In this document: one piece after another, positions 48,376 through 56,251 of the stretch
How the letters are laid out: the number at the start of each line of letters is the position of its first letter
Position numbering within the stretch: position 1 is the stretch's first letter
Origin: Persicobacter psychrovividus
Lineage (GTDB): Bacteria; Bacteroidota; Bacteroidia; Cytophagales; Cyclobacteriaceae
Assembly (NCBI RefSeq): GCF_036492425.1
Contig: NZ_AP025292.1
Coordinates: 682,001-746,000 of the forward strand
Length of the DNA: 64,000 bases
Direction of reading: 5' to 3'
Translations under genes and position numbers: made by a program
Notes under the pieces: generated by a model
What the model was told of the DNA's origin: nothing
Databases searched by the model: none
What the model saw: the letters and a program-made list of their open reading frames with translations, nothing else

Positions 48376-48698
48376 TGATGGCGGAAAAAAATTAAATTAA
48401 AGGCTGAGATTACATATAAACAAGGTAATCATTTACGATGTCTTAAAATAACAATTTACCATCCCAAATCGAAATAATTAACCCGAAATTATTCTGTGAT
48501 TTAATGGAAGTTTCTACTTGTAAAATTCACATCAATTGGTCAAAATGCAATATTAAGCATGATTTTTGATAGTATTTAGCCGCATCAGCTGATAACCTGC
48601 ATTGATTTTTGCATAGCACTGATATACCTCCTAAATTGTAAACAGGAGCATAATCCTATTTTTGTCTTTTTTGAAACTAACTATTAAATATCATACCG
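48376..48698. other. AT-rich divergent intergenic region
   Basis: This 323-bp gap separates the exported protein gene (minus) from the four-gene cluster (plus). Its right end holds the cluster promoter at 48636-48664. The rest shows no ORF or repeat I can support. Confidence 0.5.
48636..48664 (+). promoter_or_regulatory. Bacteroidota-type promoter of the secreted-protein cluster
   Basis: TTG (48636-48638), 18-nt spacer, and TATTTTTG (48657-48664). Predicted start of transcription is about 30 nt before the ATG at 48699. Confidence 0.7.
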
Positions 48699-49478
48699 AT
48701 GAATAAACCACTGGTAAACGCTACCTTCTTCGCAGGCGGTTTCCGCCCAATGATGCTTGCACTTGGGCTCTTTGCCGCAGCCTCCCTGCAATCCTGTAAA
48801 AAGAAACCTGCGCAAAGTGAACCTGTAGCTCAGGAGGTCAGTCAGGTCAGCAACAAAACTCAGGAGTTGGTCGAGCAGGCGCAATATCTTTATGATAATA
48901 TGAATAAAATGTCTGTTGACCATGTTAAAAGTGAAGTCAGCAGAATTCGTTCCGAAGCCGCTGGTAATGCGCAAGTGGAGGCCATTCTCAAAAAAGTGGA
49001 GGAAAAGCTGTCGGTGAAAGAACAACTCAACCACGCGCAGTTACTGATAGATAATTTTGAAAATTACGACCTGGCTTACCTGAAAGAAGAAACGGAGAAA
49101 CTCCACAACTCTCCTTACAGCGAAGTTAAAGCGCAAGCCAACCAACTCGACAGTATGATTACAGCCCGTGAGAAGCGTGCTTCGGATGCCCGCCCAACCA
49201 AAGTGAGGCTCAACGAGTACATGCGCAATATTGGCAGCGCAAGCTCTCCTGCCAAAGCAGACCAGGAGATTGAGAAAGCACTGAGCTTGTTCTCTAACCC
49301 AAATGTGGATGTGCTGATTATTATTGGTGTTTTCGATGGGGAAAAGGATTTTGACAAGCCAACCACCATTGGGCAATATTTGGAATACCTGAAATTACAG
49401 AAAAAAGCACCGTACAGCATCGAGAATATTGAAACAGATGCCAGCGGTAAAATTCGTTTGTTGGAACTTCAAAAATAA
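48699..49478 (+). CDS. Helical lipoprotein, first gene of the secreted cluster
   Basis: A 259-residue protein with an atypically long lipoprotein signal (residues 1-33, ending ASLQSC followed by KKK). Most of the mature part is charged, Gln/Glu-rich helix, probably coiled coil (EVSQVSNKTQELVEQAQ, AEAAGNAQ-like runs). Toward the C-terminus an alpha/beta stretch (VDVLIIIGVFDGEKDFDKPT) begins with a sequence seldom found in coiled-coil lipoproteins. It is 10 bp from the next gene, so the two are cotranscribed. Function unknown. Confidence 0.72.
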   Translation: MNKPLVNATFFAGGFRPMMLALGLFAAASLQSCKKKPAQSEPVAQEVSQVSNKTQELVEQAQYLYDNMNKMSVDHVKSEVSRIRSEAAGNAQVEAILKKVEEKLSVKEQLNHAQLLIDNFENYDLAYLKEETEKLHNSPYSEVKAQANQLDSMITAREKRASDARPTKVRLNEYMRNIGSASSPAKADQEIEKALSLFSNPNVDVLIIIGVFDGEKDFDKPTTIGQYLEYLKLQKKAPYSIENIETDASGKIRLLELQK

Positions 49479-49488
49479 GTAGTGCATT

Positions 49489-50082
49489 ATGATATCAGCA
49501 AAAATGATTAAGCAATTTTTTTTTATGGTGCTGCTGCTTACGGCGAGTGCCAATGTATGGGCGCAATCTGCAGAGCCAGACATCAGCCCCGACCGAAAGC
49601 AGGCCATTGATTCTCTCGCATTGGAGAAAGTGCGTGACCTGAGTAAGTACATCACCATCATCGGCGATAAGAAAACCCGTGATGTGGAGGCCAATGCGGC
49701 TATTGAGCGTGCAGTAGAGCTCTTCGATGCCGATGCGCAAATTGATGTCTCGTCATTGAATACCCAGAAAACCAAAGCATACGGCGTAAAGGATTATCTT
49801 AAAAGACTGAAGTTGCTCAATTACGATCAGGTGAATATTGAGTGGTTTCACATTCAGTATATTTCTGATTTGGTAAAACAGGCCGATGGCCGTTATGTGG
49901 GGGTCATCACCATTTATCAGCGATTTGAAGGGAAGCGCAAGGATGGGATGAAATATGTCGATACCACCAAGAAAGATATTACCGTATATGTAGAACGAAA
50001 GAAGACCACGATTCAAGGCAGAACGATCGGTTTTTGGGATGTGATGTTGGGTGATATTCGGGTAACGAACACCTATAAGTAA
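49489..50082 (+). CDS. Exported NTF2-like-domain protein of unknown function
   Basis: A 197-residue protein with a signal peptide (ending VWAQ). The mature domain has a helix (ALEKVRDLSKYITIIGDK), then strands VEWFH-like and GVITIYQRFEGKR, and ends IGFWDVMLGDIRV. By eye it aligns with residues 25-180 of the LRR protein at 51021 (IGD/LGD, YLKRL/YLKDI, VNIEWFHIQYISDL/VQFNYTVESIEPL, then a double strand). This suggests a shared NTF2/SnoaL-like fold. A terminator-like hairpin follows. Confidence 0.7.
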   Translation: MISAKMIKQFFFMVLLLTASANVWAQSAEPDISPDRKQAIDSLALEKVRDLSKYITIIGDKKTRDVEANAAIERAVELFDADAQIDVSSLNTQKTKAYGVKDYLKRLKLLNYDQVNIEWFHIQYISDLVKQADGRYVGVITIYQRFEGKRKDGMKYVDTTKKDITVYVERKKTTIQGRTIGFWDVMLGDIRVTNTYK

Positions 50083-50096
50083 ACATCTTTTCTGAA

Positions 50097-50133
50097 AAAC
50101 AGGCAAGGCGTGGTGCGTTTTGCCTGTTTTTTT
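50097..50133 (+). terminator. Terminator within the secreted cluster
   Basis: AAACAGGCA/TGCCTGTTT arms with a 15-nt loop and seven T residues, between the second and third genes. It may split the cluster or act as an attenuator. Confidence 0.75.
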
Positions 50134-50157
50134 ATTGGATGAAAACGATAATCAGTT

Positions 50158-50982
50158 ATGCTATCTTTAAAACGCTTAATGCTATTGCTGCTGTGTGCCT
50201 GCTCGAATTTGCTGGCGCATGCCCAGATTGGTGATTACCTCAATGCGGAAGATTTTTATGCCCGTACAAAGCAGGTGAATCAGTTTATCCGAAGGTTTAA
50301 CGGCGAGGAAACCTTGAGGGGGCAACGTTTACTGCCTACGGACAGGAATTACCATGGCGATCGACTGAGGAAGCGGTTTTTGCCACAGCTGATCGATCAG
50401 CAAAATAAGCAGGTGGCCGATCAGCTTCAGGCTTTTGGCGAGCGGGTACTTGATGCCAATGATCCGCAATTTCTCGATTTCTACAACCCCAACTGGTTTG
50501 CTGAAGTGCGCACGATGGTGGACTATCAGGGGAAGCAAATGCCCATGACTTTTTTCCTGACCCTCGAGGAGGTAAACGGAGGCTGGAAGTGGGTGATCGA
50601 CAGGATCAATTTTGCCCCTTACGACAAACTGTTCAATATGAACCATGCGCCTAAAAAATTCCTCAATCCCATGAGTCATGAGCTTTATTTTATGCCTCTG
50701 GAGAAAGCGATGAACCACCCGGAGAACCTCGAAGACTATATTCAAAAAGGGTATCAGCCCAATACACTGACGGTATTTCTGGCGGATATGAAAAGAGGGT
50801 TGCTGAAGTTTGAGCGTGTCTCGCAGGTGAATCTTCACTTCTTTCAGGTGAAGGGCTGGTATTTTCAGGTCTCAGAGATTAACCGCGCCGGGAAAAATGC
50901 CGGTTGGTTGATGACCAACCTCGTGCAGGCCGATCAGCCAACAAAAGAAAAGCTCAAGGCTTATATACAGGAGCAGGAATAA
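50158..50982 (+). CDS. Exported protein of unknown function, third gene of the cluster
   Basis: A 274-residue protein with a signal peptide (ending LAHAQ). The mature region contains DFYARTKQVNQFIRRFNGEE, then FFLTLEEVNGGWKWVIDRI, again a helix-then-sheet arrangement as in NTF2-like domains. A second half of about 110 residues (LYFMPLEKAMNHPENL, then LNLHFF-like strands) has no recognised family. It lies 38 bp before the LRR gene. Confidence 0.7.
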   Translation: MLSLKRLMLLLLCACSNLLAHAQIGDYLNAEDFYARTKQVNQFIRRFNGEETLRGQRLLPTDRNYHGDRLRKRFLPQLIDQQNKQVADQLQAFGERVLDANDPQFLDFYNPNWFAEVRTMVDYQGKQMPMTFFLTLEEVNGGWKWVIDRINFAPYDKLFNMNHAPKKFLNPMSHELYFMPLEKAMNHPENLEDYIQKGYQPNTLTVFLADMKRGLLKFERVSQVNLHFFQVKGWYFQVSEINRAGKNAGWLMTNLVQADQPTKEKLKAYIQEQE

Positions 50983-51020
50983 CAAGTGCCATTTTTTATT
51001 CCATAAAGAATCAATAGAGA

Positions 51021-53654
51021 ATGCAAGGAAGAAATAAAATCTGGATCATTTTGATCCTTTGTCTGGGCATGGTGGGAAAAGGCTTTGCCCAGCAGGAGAA
51101 GCTCGATAAATACAAAGAAGATGCTGGCCGCCTGATTAATTACTGGCAGGTTTATGTGAATATTCTTGGCGATTCTACTGAAGCCATGGATGATAAAGAG
51201 CGTATTGTGTCGGAAAGTTACCTGCGGGTAATCCGTGATTCCAAAGTTCAGATAGAGGACGATTTGGATGCCAACCGTCTCGTTCCTTATTATAAAGATG
51301 CGCAGGCCTATTTAAAAGACATTACCTTCTTTTATCGTCAGGTGCAATTTAACTATACGGTAGAATCCATTGAACCATTAGTAAACGACCAGGGGGAGTA
51401 TAGCCTGATCGTTAAAACCCAGCGCAACCTGCAGGGGATATTGGTGAAGGATCGGCAGGCGGTGGAAGATACCAAAACGGTATATTTTGAAATGACGGTG
51501 AATCAGAGTGATGAAACCGTGAAAATCGTCAGTGTATATTCTACCAAACTGAACGAGGACGAAGAACTTTACAAATGGTGGTTTGCCTTGTCGCCAAACT
51601 GGAAAACCATTCTTGGAAGCCATACCTTCCTTGCGGACAGCAGCAAGCTTGCAGACCTGCAGCCCTTTGTTGCCCCCGATTCTTCTGCCGTTGCGGAACA
51701 GGTGCCGGCATCAGCCACCGACAGCCTGAGCACGCAACCAGTCGATTCATCAGCAGTGGCCATCACGAAGGCTGATTACATCAATGCGATAAAGCGTGCA
51801 GTAAGTACAGAAGCTTTGGATCTATCAGACCATATGGAGCTTTATGATTTTGACCCGCTGAACAAACTGACCAACCTTCGTACCCTCAACCTGAGTCATA
51901 CTTTCATCGATACGCTTTATATGGTTCGAAATATGACACAGCTCGAACGATTGGATATTTCCTACACCCGAGTTCGCGATTTGGGCAATCTGCGCTATTT
52001 GGCCTCGTTAAAGGAATTATCTGCACAATACAGCCCCATTGAAAATGCCCTGACCCTCAGTAGGCTTCGGGGGATTCAACGTCTGAATTTAGCATATACC
52101 CCTTTCGATTCCCTCAATATTCTAAAGTACAACAATCATTTAAAAGTGCTTGACCTGTCCGGAACGGCCAACTATGACCTCAGCCCGCTTGCCGAGGTTC
52201 ACAGCCTGACAGAATTGCATCTGGAGTCAGATTCGCTGGTTGATTTTCAGCAGCTTGCCCAGTTCAAAAAACTTGAAAAATTGGAATTGACCAATACCAA
52301 TATTGCCGACCTTTCGGTACTGAAACCACTAACGCAGCTACAGGTGCTTTTTATCAAGAACACCAGGGTTGCCGACCTTGCGCCACTTCAGGAATTGCCG
52401 TCATTAAAAACGGTGTATTGCGATAACTCTGGCGTAGATATTAATCATGCACAGAAGTTTATGCGTGAAAAAGCGGGTACACTGGTGGTGGCAGATTCAA
52501 AAATGCTACAGCAATGGTGGCAAACGCTTCCCTCTGCCTGGGCGGAGGTGTTCCATGCCATGCTCCCTGACAGCCTTCAGGAACCAACAGGGGAGTGGTT
52601 GCATCAAACGGTTTTTGGGGTGACAGATTTAGCGGTGAACGGTAAGGACATCATGGATTTGGAACCACTGCGGATGCTGGTCAACCTGAAAAAACTCGAT
52701 ATTTCACATACAGGGGTTTATCGACTTGACCCACTGAAGGATTTAGTCAGCTTGCAAGAGCTCAACCTCTCCGATACCAAAGTTACCAGCCTGAGCGCAT
52801 TGAAAAGCCTCGGGCAGCTGGAGAAAATAGACTTTTCGGGGACACCGATTGCCACCATTACCGATCTGAAATCTTTGCATCAGCTGAAGCAAATTAATGG
52901 AGATGGAACGCAGGTTGGCGACCTGAAAGCACTGGACAGCCTGAAACAGCTTTCGAAAATCCATTTTGACGATACACGGGTGGAAGATCAGGACGTGAAA
53001 GAATTTCTACAGGTGCATCCCAAAGCCATGGTGATCTACAAAACCAAAGCACTGAAGCAATGGTGGTCGGGAATGTCAAGGGCATGGAAAAGTGCTTTTG
53101 ATAAAAATACAGGACTGGGGCTGTTGCCCACCTCAGAGCAGTTGCATGAGTTGATTTTGAGCGATCAAATCGACCTCTCTAATATGCCTGATGTTCAGCG
53201 GCTCGATGCCTTGGCGCCTTTCGTAAACCTGAAGCGCCTTGTGGCTCGCAATACCCGCCTGATGGACATCAGTCCTTTGGCCAAACACCCCGGCCTGACC
53301 TATCTTGATATTTCCAATAATCCTATTGAAAATATTGAAACGGTTAGTCAATTGCAGCATCTGAACGTGCTGTTGCTTGAGAATGCACAGGTGCCTTTGT
53401 TTGACCCTATCGCTACGCTGCCTCAGCTGAAGCAACTCAACATTGCAGGTACCCGCATTAAGCGGATTCATGGGGTGGAGATGCTTAAAAGTTTGGAGGA
53501 CTTCTCTTTTTACAATACTAAAATTCGAGGAATTTCCCGCTTGGCAGATTGCCCTAACTTGAAGAAAATTTCATGTTATAATTCAAAAGTAAGAAGCTCG
53601 GATATCGAGAAGCTTAAGGCGAAACACGCAACCTTGTCGGTGAATTATTATTGA
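51021..53654 (+). CDS. Exported modular leucine-rich-repeat protein
   Basis: An 877-residue protein. A signal peptide (residues 1-23, ending GFAQ) is followed by an NTF2-like domain (about 25-185), a Ser/Ala/Asp-rich linker (about 210-245) and three blocks of 22-residue SDS22-type leucine-rich repeats. Each block is headed by a Trp-rich helix: LYKWWFALSPNWKTI near residue 187, LQQWWQTLPSAWAEVF near 494, and LKQWWSGMSRAWKSAF near 674. Blocks end with a cap of the form HPKAMVIY or HATLSVNYY. LRRs of this kind bind proteins. No membrane anchor or T9SS C-terminal domain is evident. Followed by a terminator at 53681. Confidence 0.82.
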   Translation: MQGRNKIWIILILCLGMVGKGFAQQEKLDKYKEDAGRLINYWQVYVNILGDSTEAMDDKERIVSESYLRVIRDSKVQIEDDLDANRLVPYYKDAQAYLKDITFFYRQVQFNYTVESIEPLVNDQGEYSLIVKTQRNLQGILVKDRQAVEDTKTVYFEMTVNQSDETVKIVSVYSTKLNEDEELYKWWFALSPNWKTILGSHTFLADSSKLADLQPFVAPDSSAVAEQVPASATDSLSTQPVDSSAVAITKADYINAIKRAVSTEALDLSDHMELYDFDPLNKLTNLRTLNLSHTFIDTLYMVRNMTQLERLDISYTRVRDLGNLRYLASLKELSAQYSPIENALTLSRLRGIQRLNLAYTPFDSLNILKYNNHLKVLDLSGTANYDLSPLAEVHSLTELHLESDSLVDFQQLAQFKKLEKLELTNTNIADLSVLKPLTQLQVLFIKNTRVADLAPLQELPSLKTVYCDNSGVDINHAQKFMREKAGTLVVADSKMLQQWWQTLPSAWAEVFHAMLPDSLQEPTGEWLHQTVFGVTDLAVNGKDIMDLEPLRMLVNLKKLDISHTGVYRLDPLKDLVSLQELNLSDTKVTSLSALKSLGQLEKIDFSGTPIATITDLKSLHQLKQINGDGTQVGDLKALDSLKQLSKIHFDDTRVEDQDVKEFLQVHPKAMVIYKTKALKQWWSGMSRAWKSAFDKNTGLGLLPTSEQLHELILSDQIDLSNMPDVQRLDALAPFVNLKRLVARNTRLMDISPLAKHPGLTYLDISNNPIENIETVSQLQHLNVLLLENAQVPLFDPIATLPQLKQLNIAGTRIKRIHGVEMLKSLEDFSFYNTKIRGISRLADCPNLKKISCYNSKVRSSDIEKLKAKHATLSVNYY

Positions 53655-53680
53655 TGAACCCGACGAGTACAGGAAGCATG

Positions 53681-53715
53681 AATCGGCAGGCAATTTTTGT
53701 CTGCCGATTTTTTTT
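53681..53715 (+). terminator. Intrinsic terminator of the LRR gene
   Basis: AATCGGCAG/CTGCCGATT arms with an 11-nt loop and a T-run. Confidence 0.9.
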
Positions 53716-53765: not shown

Positions 53766-54590
53766 GTGGAAAAAGTCTTCTTAGTAACGGGCGGTTCTTC
53801 AGGTATTGGGAAGGCCATTGCGCTTCATTTAAAAGCAAATGGCTACCGTGTATTTGGTACCAGCCGTCGCATGATAGCGAATGATCCTTCGGGGTTGGAA
53901 TTTATCCAGATGGATGTCAATAACGATGAGGCTGTAAAGGCGGGGATTCAGCAGCTGATCGAAAAAACGGGCCGATTGGACGGGGTGATTAACTCGGCAG
54001 GTTTAGGGACGATTGGTGCCGTGGAGGAAATGCCTATTGATACCATAAAGGAGGTTTTTGAAACCAACTTTTACGGCGTGCTGCGGGTTTGTCAGGCAGT
54101 GTTGCCCATCTTCAGGGCTCAGAAGTCTGGGCATATCATCAATATTTCGTCTATTGCAGGAGAGGTTTCTTTGCCTTTCAGAGGGTTCTATTCAGCCAGT
54201 AAGTTTGCCGTAGAGGCGATGACGGAGGCTTTGCGTATGGAGGTGAAAGGTTTCGGAATTGAGGTGTCGATGATTCAGCCAGGGGATTTCAATACCAATA
54301 TTGCGAGTGCAAGAAAAAATGCCGATCTCGATGCCAACTCTCCTTATGCCAAGCTGATCGAGGAGATGAATGTCCTGATTAAGAAAGGGATGGACAGTGC
54401 ACCAACACCTGAGGCTGTTGGCGTTGCCGCATTGAATATTGTGGAAAATAAAAAACCCACACTGCGTTATCCAGTGGGGGCTTTTGTAGAGAAAATATCG
54501 ATTAAGCTGAGGAAATTTCTTCCAACAAAACTTTACGAGAAAATCATTATGGGGCATTATAATATGCTCGACGACCGCATGTATAAATAA
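53766..54590 (+). CDS. Short-chain dehydrogenase/reductase
   Basis: A 274-residue classical SDR. The cofactor motif is VTGGSSGIGKAIAL at the N-terminus, with NSAGLG near residue 78. The catalytic Ser is in INISSIAG and Tyr/Lys in YSASKFAVEAM near residue 149. Arg residues after the second strand (TSRR) suggest NADP preference. The substrate is unknown; it resembles the oxidoreductases that act on lipids or steroids. The start is GTG at 53766. Confidence 0.88.
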   Translation: MEKVFLVTGGSSGIGKAIALHLKANGYRVFGTSRRMIANDPSGLEFIQMDVNNDEAVKAGIQQLIEKTGRLDGVINSAGLGTIGAVEEMPIDTIKEVFETNFYGVLRVCQAVLPIFRAQKSGHIINISSIAGEVSLPFRGFYSASKFAVEAMTEALRMEVKGFGIEVSMIQPGDFNTNIASARKNADLDANSPYAKLIEEMNVLIKKGMDSAPTPEAVGVAALNIVENKKPTLRYPVGAFVEKISIKLRKFLPTKLYEKIIMGHYNMLDDRMYK

Positions 54591-54600
54591 TCTATAGAAA

Positions 54601-54658
54601 CGGGAGCATGGCTGCCATGGGGCGTTTGGTTTTCCTGATCGGGAGAGGCATGCTCCCG
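54601..54658. repeat. Inverted repeat between the SDR and sigma factor genes
   Basis: CGGGAGCATG (54601-54610) and CATGCTCCCG (54649-54658) are perfect 10-bp arms 38 bp apart, followed by GAGC/GCTC and a T-run at 54675-54681. It may act as a terminator of the SDR gene or be a REP-like unit. Confidence 0.5.
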
Positions 54659-54691
54659 ATGAGCAACAGCTCCCTTTTTTTATCACGTCCT

Positions 54692-55315
54692 TCAAATAGT
54701 TTCGGATTGCGCCTCGAGCTGCCGACGTATATGGCGTTTGAATGCAGGGTTTTCATCGACAAGCGATTTCAGCCGTTTGAGGCATTTGCTCTTTTTGTTT
54801 TTCAGCGCCTGAGCACTGCTGAAAGGGCTTTCGATCACGGCTTCTTCATAGCGGAGCTGATGAAAATAGTAATCCATCAGGACTTGTTTACAACCTTCAG
54901 GAAGGTGGTCGAAAATATTTTCTATCGCTTCCTGTTTATTAATGACGGGCAATTGCAAAGACTCGTCAATTTCATCTTCTACCCGTGGGATGATGACCTT
55001 CTGATTGACCAACTCCTCAAAATTTTCAACAGCGGTAAATCGCTCATTTTTTTTCAGCTGCTGTAGCCATCGGTTTCTTGAAATGGCATAAAGAATGGTG
55101 GTGATACTTGCCTTGTATTTGTAGTCGTTTCTTTTTATCAGGTCGATAAGAATTAAAATGGCTTCCTGAAAAATGTCCTCGGCATCTTCCACCCGACCAT
55201 TATTATAGCATATCCATCTTTTTACACTCGGGAAACTTTTATGGTAAAGGGACAGCATCGCCGTTTGCATATTCTGTCCGTTTTTGATCTGCCTAAGCAT
55301 ATCTTTATCTGTCAT
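54692..55315 (-). CDS. Sigma-70 family (ECF-like) RNA polymerase sigma factor
   Basis: A 207-residue sigma factor. Region 2 includes EDAEDIFQEAILILIDL near residue 43 (polymerase core and -10 binding). Region 4 includes LPEGCKQVLMDYYFHQLRYEE and SSAQALKNKKSKCLKRLK, a helix-turn-helix for the -35. The connector of about 60 residues between them is acidic and longer than in most ECF factors. No anti-sigma factor gene is adjacent. Targets are unknown. Confidence 0.87.
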   Translation of the reverse strand: MTDKDMLRQIKNGQNMQTAMLSLYHKSFPSVKRWICYNNGRVEDAEDIFQEAILILIDLIKRNDYKYKASITTILYAISRNRWLQQLKKNERFTAVENFEELVNQKVIIPRVEDEIDESLQLPVINKQEAIENIFDHLPEGCKQVLMDYYFHQLRYEEAVIESPFSSAQALKNKKSKCLKRLKSLVDENPAFKRHIRRQLEAQSETI

Positions 55316-55425
55316 GTCCTATCACTATACTTGGTTCTTTCAGACTAACGGAGCGAATGAACGGTCAGCTAAAAGGAAAGGTAACCCAAATATGTTAGGT
55401 TTTCGTCAGATTGCAGAGGAGTTCC

Positions 55426-56034
55426 TTACAGATGAAAAGAGTAGCCTAAAGTGAAGGTAAGCGCATTATTGAGCAAGGCATTGTTGTTTTCCCTGTTGTT
55501 GGTTACATCAGTCAGGCCGATGGAATAATAAACCGACATCAGGAAGTTGGGGCGAAGGGCATATTCAATACCAATATTGGCGGAAATATCCAAGGGGTTG
55601 AGCACCTTGGTGATATTTCGCTTCTGTCCATTTTCTACCTCTGTGGCATTGAGCAAAAAGCCAAACTGAGGGCCGGCAATCATGTTGAGGTTTTTTTGGT
55701 TGATCGACACTTTTCCCCACACGGGAATCTGAATATACTGCAAGTTAAGATCGAAGGTCGCGACCTCTGATTTGAAGTGCGCCCCCCCCTGCATATAAAA
55801 TAGGCCGACTTTAGTATAGATGTCATTATTCAGGGGAAGTACAATCATGGACCCAAACTGTACGCCGACAAGTCCCGATCCACCTTCCTGCCCAACACCA
55901 CTCATAAACGAATAGTTGAGCCCCATTTGAGATTCTACACTTATTTTGTGAAAGACACCATTGAACTTCCAAGCCCTTGCAAAGGAAGATAGGTGGATGA
56001 CGACAAAGAAGGCAATCAGGGCAATTTTTTTCAT
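55426..56034 (-). CDS. PorT-like outer membrane beta-barrel protein
   Basis: A 202-residue protein with a signal peptide (residues 1-20) and an 8-strand-like barrel: GLNYSFMSGVG, VQFGSMIVLPL, TKVGLFYMQGGAHF, IQIPVWGKV and ALTFTLGYSFHL at the C-terminus. It fits the small PorT/OmpW-like barrels of Bacteroidota. Most of these have no known function; only PorT itself serves gliding/T9SS. The ATG at 56034 is used. Confidence 0.8.
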   Translation of the reverse strand: MKKIALIAFFVVIHLSSFARAWKFNGVFHKISVESQMGLNYSFMSGVGQEGGSGLVGVQFGSMIVLPLNNDIYTKVGLFYMQGGAHFKSEVATFDLNLQYIQIPVWGKVSINQKNLNMIAGPQFGFLLNATEVENGQKRNITKVLNPLDISANIGIEYALRPNFLMSVYYSIGLTDVTNNRENNNALLNNALTFTLGYSFHL

Positions 56035-56251
56035 ATTCAAGAAATGAGAGCGGGCAGTTTATGCACAATCGTTTTGTGGTGCAAAGCTAAAAAAATATTG
56101 AAATGCACAGAAGAAAAAGGGCAATTAAAGGTGGGGTGTTTTAAAATTGATGGCTTTTTGGCCATGAAAAAAGGCCTGCCCTCATCATTTTCTGATAAGA
56201 TACAGGCGTAATATTTTTCACTAATTCCATTTGGAAAGACGCTTTTTCCAA

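Follow-up and report, generated by a model that had tools for sequence, protein, structure and literature searches.

A conserved gene set for four exported proteins in Persicobacter psychrovividus, very probably encoding an undescribed envelope complex of Bacteroidota

Four consecutive genes for exported proteins lie in a 64,000-nucleotide stretch of the Persicobacter psychrovividus contig NZ_AP025292.1 (positions 682,001 to 746,000, hereafter the window), and the locus raises the question of whether these proteins act together and, if so, as what. The genes are lettered A to D in their order on the + strand, and positions are those within the 64-kb window; G000 is the window's genome, while other G and L numbers denote other genomes and fetched loci. 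The coordinates and strand of all four open reading frames given in a preliminary description of this DNA (starts at 48699, 49489, 50158 and 51021) were borne out, as was a signal peptide, recognised by eye, at the start of each protein, with a lipobox in A. The set travels together in many Bacteroidota, including genomes in which the operon is split, from which we conclude that the four proteins very probably make up a single, as yet undescribed envelope complex; the physical complex is what we infer from this. The genes and their domains are as follows.

48699..49478, + strand: gene A, lipoprotein of 259 aa with lipobox LQSC (Cys33), K-rich positions +2 to +6 and a charged, probably helical middle
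49197..49475, + strand: C-terminal domain of A (residues 167-259), similar by hhalign to the first half of B
49489..50082, + strand: gene B, exported protein of 197 aa, predicted NTF2-like, the most conserved of the four
50158..50982, + strand: gene C, exported protein of 274 aa with two predicted helix-then-sheet halves and no known family
51021..53654, + strand: gene D, exported leucine-rich repeat (LRR) protein of 877 aa with LRR families in Pfam
51093..51575, + strand: N-terminal domain of D (residues 25-185), B-related by profiles
51576..53651, + strand: LRR region of D, with three WW cap motifs (residues 186, 499 and 681), one ahead of each LRR block

A protein search with B among 59 relatives gave a match in 28 of them at E<=0.001, and the order A-B-C-D was found around most of these hits and in most of 80 further loci from a genome-contig scan. 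One of the scanned loci, L052, carries B at 100% identity, which places the window in a Persicobacter genome. The preliminary description had named conserved gene order, beforehand, as one of two points on which its idea would stand or fall, and the order was conserved in most fetched loci; its label 'lineage-specific' was rejected, since the same order recurs in many genera. Among the named carriers are Marivirga, Fulvivirga, Flexithrix, Thermoflexibacter, Algoriphagus, Ohtaekwangia and many metagenome-assembled genomes labelled Bacteroidales, and flanking genes vary outside the genus. The cassette is widespread but patchy among Bacteroidota, including Cytophagales and environmental Bacteroidales: an even draw over the phylum gave a B match in 8 of 296 genomes, and B is missing from many close relatives within the same family. 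Where the cassette is present, its genes overlap or are closely spaced (C and D overlap in 67 of 88 cases).

Within the set of 59 relatives, B and the N-terminal domain of D (E<1e-50) were both present in an identical 24 genomes (G000, 1, 2, 4, 5, 6, 8, 10, 13, 14, 16, 17, 19, 21, 22, 26, 27, 29, 32, 33, 35, 39, 56 and 58) and both missing in the other 35, counted with kinship ignored. Seven genomes with split cassettes retain the remaining genes elsewhere: A, B-C and D are spread over three contigs or places in G039 and G058, in the genomes of L077, L068, L078 and L090 both C and D lie away from the A-B locus, and in the genome of L055 D lies away from A-B-C. Over 79 loci, the four families show correlated pairwise distances (r 0.73-0.82), as expected under co-inheritance. 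The conserved order, the identical presence of B and D and the retention of the full set when split all agree with the dedicated envelope gene set proposed earlier.

Searches of A to D against Pfam and NCBIfam returned nothing above cut-off other than the LRR families in D, and no enzyme family was matched in A, B or C, in accordance with the earlier statement that no enzyme domain is recognisable. PADLOC anti-phage defence models matched no cassette protein at E<=0.01, and searches of plasmids were negative or gave a single weak match to a Runella plasmid. Median pairwise identity was 70% for B, 47% for C, 40% for A and 35% for D.

The fold of B could be assigned from its AlphaFold2 model (predicted local distance difference test score, pLDDT, 88.8). 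Fold searches with Foldseek and VIA-align agreed with the earlier proposal of an NTF2-like protein: the best match, 3rob, had Z 14.3 with a root-mean-square deviation of 2.4 over 129 residues, and 763 of 999 chains in VIA reached Z 8 or more. Thus, B is predicted to adopt an NTF2-like fold, although this common fold alone says nothing certain about its function. At the sequence level B had no match to the NTF2-like families of Pfam and NCBIfam at E<=1, and searches of PDB sequences with the B and C profiles gave nothing credible.

Profile comparisons pointed to B-related modules in two of the other proteins. The by-eye alignment of B with the start of D was not recovered by plain BLASTP of the window pair (E 1.3), whereas a relation was detected at the profile level. 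The first profile score (E 7.5e-7) was inflated in part by signal peptides, and with these removed hhalign gave E 4.8e-4 at 32% probability over 54 columns. A hidden Markov model (HMM) of the D N-terminal domain, likewise free of the signal peptide, gave co-linear matches of about 129 residues to some B proteins, with a best E value of 1.8e-5 in a small database of open reading frames. These scores argue, with moderate strength, for a D N-terminal domain related to B. The C-terminal ~90 residues of A matched the first part of B by hhalign (E 3.4e-6 over 39 columns, signal peptide removed), and the HMM of this domain, whose E values come from the same small database, gave 25 B matches, by which the A C-terminus appears to resemble the first half of B. 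Nearly all remaining pairs of different domains scored at E 0.03-0.42, and the D N-terminal domain against its neighbouring LRR region at 0.004.

Protein C stood apart. Its model (pLDDT 85) shows two helix-then-sheet halves, Foldseek found no match under E 0.001, and the best VIA match was a designed NTF2 at a weak Z of 4.3, with none at Z 5 or more. No sequence relation of C to B or D was detected by profile comparison, and profiles gave no support to the 'similar helix-sheet segment' that had been noticed in C or to C as an NTF2-like homologue of B. The structural superposition put forward with the preliminary description was carried out indirectly, by comparing the B and C models via fold searches, which upheld the NTF2-like fold for B and left C with its weak match.

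Protein D carries tandem LRRs (LRR_4 in Pfam, E 3e-48, nine stretches), and three WW motifs, each preceding an LRR block, were found in 62 of 86 D homologues. In PDB sequence searches the LRR region resembled internalins and Roco-type LRRs, and the NCBIfam class 1 internalin model scored 135 bits against a curated cut-off of 1600. For export to the surface, D showed no match to the C-terminal sorting domains of the type IX secretion system (T9SS) in Pfam (Por_Secre_tail or CHU_C) and no lipobox by eye. In Bacteroidota, the surface-export signal of lipoproteins consists of acidic residues after the lipid cysteine, K-(D/E)2 (PMC5080379). The A protein of the window reads CKKKPA from this cysteine, and positions +2 to +6 of 93 A homologues contain on average 3.2 K/R and 0.03 D/E, commonly as KSKK. 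By this signal A, with no acidic residues there, falls outside the surface-export class; it probably faces the periplasm, because lysines after the lipobox are the reverse of the known signal.

The regulatory elements proposed earlier, namely a promoter ahead of the first gene, a mid-cassette hairpin and a terminator after the last gene, were all found again:

48636..48664, + strand: Bacteroidota-type promoter match TTG-N18-TATTTTTG (-33/-7), with the ATG of A 35 bases downstream
50094..50132, + strand: terminator-like hairpin with T-run in the B-C gap (-25.8 kcal/mol, z -5.9)
53680..53710, + strand: intrinsic terminator 3' of D, a 14-pair hairpin followed by a T-run

The promoter pattern has two matches in the window, with 1.4 expected by chance per 64-kb window on both strands, and TAnnTTTG occurs upstream of 50 of 91 A homologues compared to 15.3 expected after shuffling. 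A similar hairpin with a T-run lies at the equivalent B-C position in a second Persicobacter genome. In a survey of 40 distinct B-C gaps of 40-600 bases, controlled by dinucleotide shuffles, 19 contained a hairpin with a T-run compared to 0.6 expected, and their sequences differed among gaps; TAnnTTTG was not enriched within these gaps (3 versus 3.55 expected). A terminator-like element was still present 3' of B in L077, L078 and L090, which have no C downstream. Recurrent B-C terminators without promoter enrichment in the gap suggest two expression levels, and the simplest reading is that A-B would be expressed above C-D, the latter by read-through past the B terminator.

The solenoid of D appears to be exchangeable. 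In L026 and L149, a 949-aa protein comes after B-C; it begins with a match to the D N-terminal domain (E 9e-10 in L026 and 7e-11 in G249), and in L026 it carries tetratricopeptide repeats (TPRs). A 917-aa TPR protein holds the D position in L027, where no match to the D N-terminal domain was found. In the stretches L026 4495-10471 and L149 6506-12631, the B homologues ahead of C and the 949-aa protein have an N-terminal beta-rich extension. The preliminary description mentions neither these TPR variants, nor those beside type VI secretion genes (see below), nor the resemblance of the A C-terminus to B, nor the recurrence of the B-C terminator.

To account for these features, we propose that A to D form a lipoprotein-tethered periplasmic scaffold with B as its hub and D as a client-binding arm, a reading to which we assign a probability of roughly 0.45, with complex formation, stoichiometry and client binding all inferred. 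The gene set and its co-occurrence, the fold prediction for B, the profile links of A and D to B, the export signals read from the sequences and the recurrent terminator are the observations behind it. A would be lipid-anchored, with the inner leaflet of the outer membrane as the most likely site, its charged helical spacer reaching into the periplasm and its C-terminal half-NTF2-like domain docking onto B. The highly conserved B would be an oligomeric NTF2-like hub, which D may join via its B-related N-terminal domain while presenting its solenoid, LRR here and TPR in variants, for binding of a client protein or polymer. C would be a further obligate partner, and the leaky terminator after B would keep A and B in excess over C and D. 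A bolder version, which we regard as doubtful, is an obligate four-protein periplasmic machine that reuses the NTF2-like module in at least three partners (the half-domain of A, the B hub and the N-terminal domain of D), has interchangeable LRR and TPR client arms, sets the ratio of A/B to C/D by the terminator, and has had variants adopted by loci of the type VI secretion system, subtype iii (T6SSiii).

Several points weigh against the scaffold. The evidence comes from gene sequences and predictions, and no interaction among A to D is known. C has no detectable relation to the other three proteins, and B and the D N-terminal domain, compared free of signal peptides, are moderately related (E 4.8e-4). 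The missing surface-export motif is no proof of a periplasmic A, which could be retained at the inner membrane instead, and the joint occurrence of B and the D N-terminal domain is a raw count that ignores phylogeny. Enzymes and ligand-binding proteins, too, often have NTF2-like folds. A rather improbable alternative is that A and B are ligand-binding or enzymatic proteins of the ketosteroid isomerase, SnoaL or LinA type that process a periplasmic small molecule, with D as a recognition partner. LinA, ketosteroid isomerases and dehydratases are among the closest fold matches of B, but at 5-18% identity in a list that mostly reflects the fold itself; Pfam and NCBIfam gave no enzyme family, and the D N-terminal domain and the A half-domain, though B-related, are not recognisable enzymes. 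Somewhat better placed, though still unlikely, is a housekeeping factor of envelope biogenesis or the cell wall in place of a client-binding scaffold, for which the 70% median identity of B across phylum members, a penicillin-binding protein gene 3' of D in five loci, and lgt and menA (by eye) flanking B-C in Bernardetiaceae-like genomes would speak; its patchy distribution, with absence from many close genomes of the same family, and neighbours conserved across loci in narrow groups only, argue in the other direction.

The internalin and Roco-type resemblance of the D LRRs would fit a surface receptor or adhesin, with these LRRs exposed on the cell exterior and A as their anchor. We consider this improbable, since D has neither a lipobox (by eye) nor a T9SS tail match, internalin models score far under their cut-offs, and A carries lysines behind its lipid cysteine, contrary to the surface-export signal. 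An accessory role in the contractile T6SSiii apparatus is very improbable as an account of the cassette, even though divergent B-C cassettes (L147 and L146 in G026, L148 in G046) lie beside or inside T6SSiii-like clusters. These clusters contain a Pfam-confirmed ClpV, and their TssB-, TssC-, Hcp-, VgrG- and PAAR-like genes were named mostly by eye; RHS and Imm25 adjoin one of them. No T6SSiii TssC homologue was found in G000, and one is present in 3 of the 59 relatives compared to 24 with the cassette; two Pfam models were poor probes for this system (VipB gave no match even where a T6SSiii-like cluster is present, and TssR matched in three genomes). Unlike TssNQOP (PMC10781749), B and C start with signal peptides that look cleavable. 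Such a role could hold for the divergent B-C copies, and as the main role in Persicobacter it is refuted by the absence of TssC, barring an undetected contractile system.

Among the closest described systems, the T6SSiii membrane complex TssNQOPR (PMC10781749) is a multi-protein envelope assembly of Bacteroidota with one lipoprotein, as is proposed for the cassette; divergent B-C copies near T6SSiii genes add to the likeness, while the window's genome lacks T6SSiii and the protein topologies and predicted folds differ. T9SS shares the phylum and the envelope location, but SprA occurs in 57 of 59 relatives with or without the cassette, which made this link uninformative, and no conserved T9SS neighbour was seen. 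The model of B has the helix and curved-sheet arrangement of the NTF2-like superfamily (3rob, LinA, ketosteroid isomerase, CaMKII hub); B differs in being exported, in lacking a sequence family match and in occurring together with a lipoprotein, C and a solenoid protein. The LRR region of D is like those of SDS22, internalin and Roco-type proteins, from which D differs by its B-related N-terminal domain, its three WW-capped LRR blocks and the lack of a cell-wall anchor or GTPase. A search among open-access papers gave no description of the four-gene set. The set is unlike any described system found; its parts are known folds. Pfam, NCBIfam and PADLOC contain no entry for three of the four families, yet the set stays together in many environmental Bacteroidota, a phylum with an outer-membrane biology unlike that of Proteobacteria. 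Four genes with one highly conserved hub offer a defined, knockable target in an unexplained part of the Bacteroidota envelope.

Some neighbouring genes recur within narrow groups. In the Fulvivirga-like loci L082, L100, L114 and L127, a same-strand gene 3' of D encodes the penicillin-binding protein, a transglycosylase plus transpeptidase (checked in L082). In the Bernardetiaceae-like loci L035, L037, L084 and L117, B-C lies between lgt and menA (by eye), and in both genomes that were checked A and D are found at other sites. In L027 (10137-11732), the divergent B-C pair and the 917-aa TPR protein are immediately preceded by a protein kinase gene; an A-like tail on this kinase, seen by eye, received no support from the A HMM. 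The genome of L055 (G355) has at least eight extra domains like the D N-terminal domain in proteins of ~220-944 aa, a local expansion. Downstream of D in the window (53766-56040) lie short-chain dehydrogenase/reductase-like, sigma-factor-like and outer-membrane-barrel-like genes, which adjoin the cassette otherwise only in the second Persicobacter.

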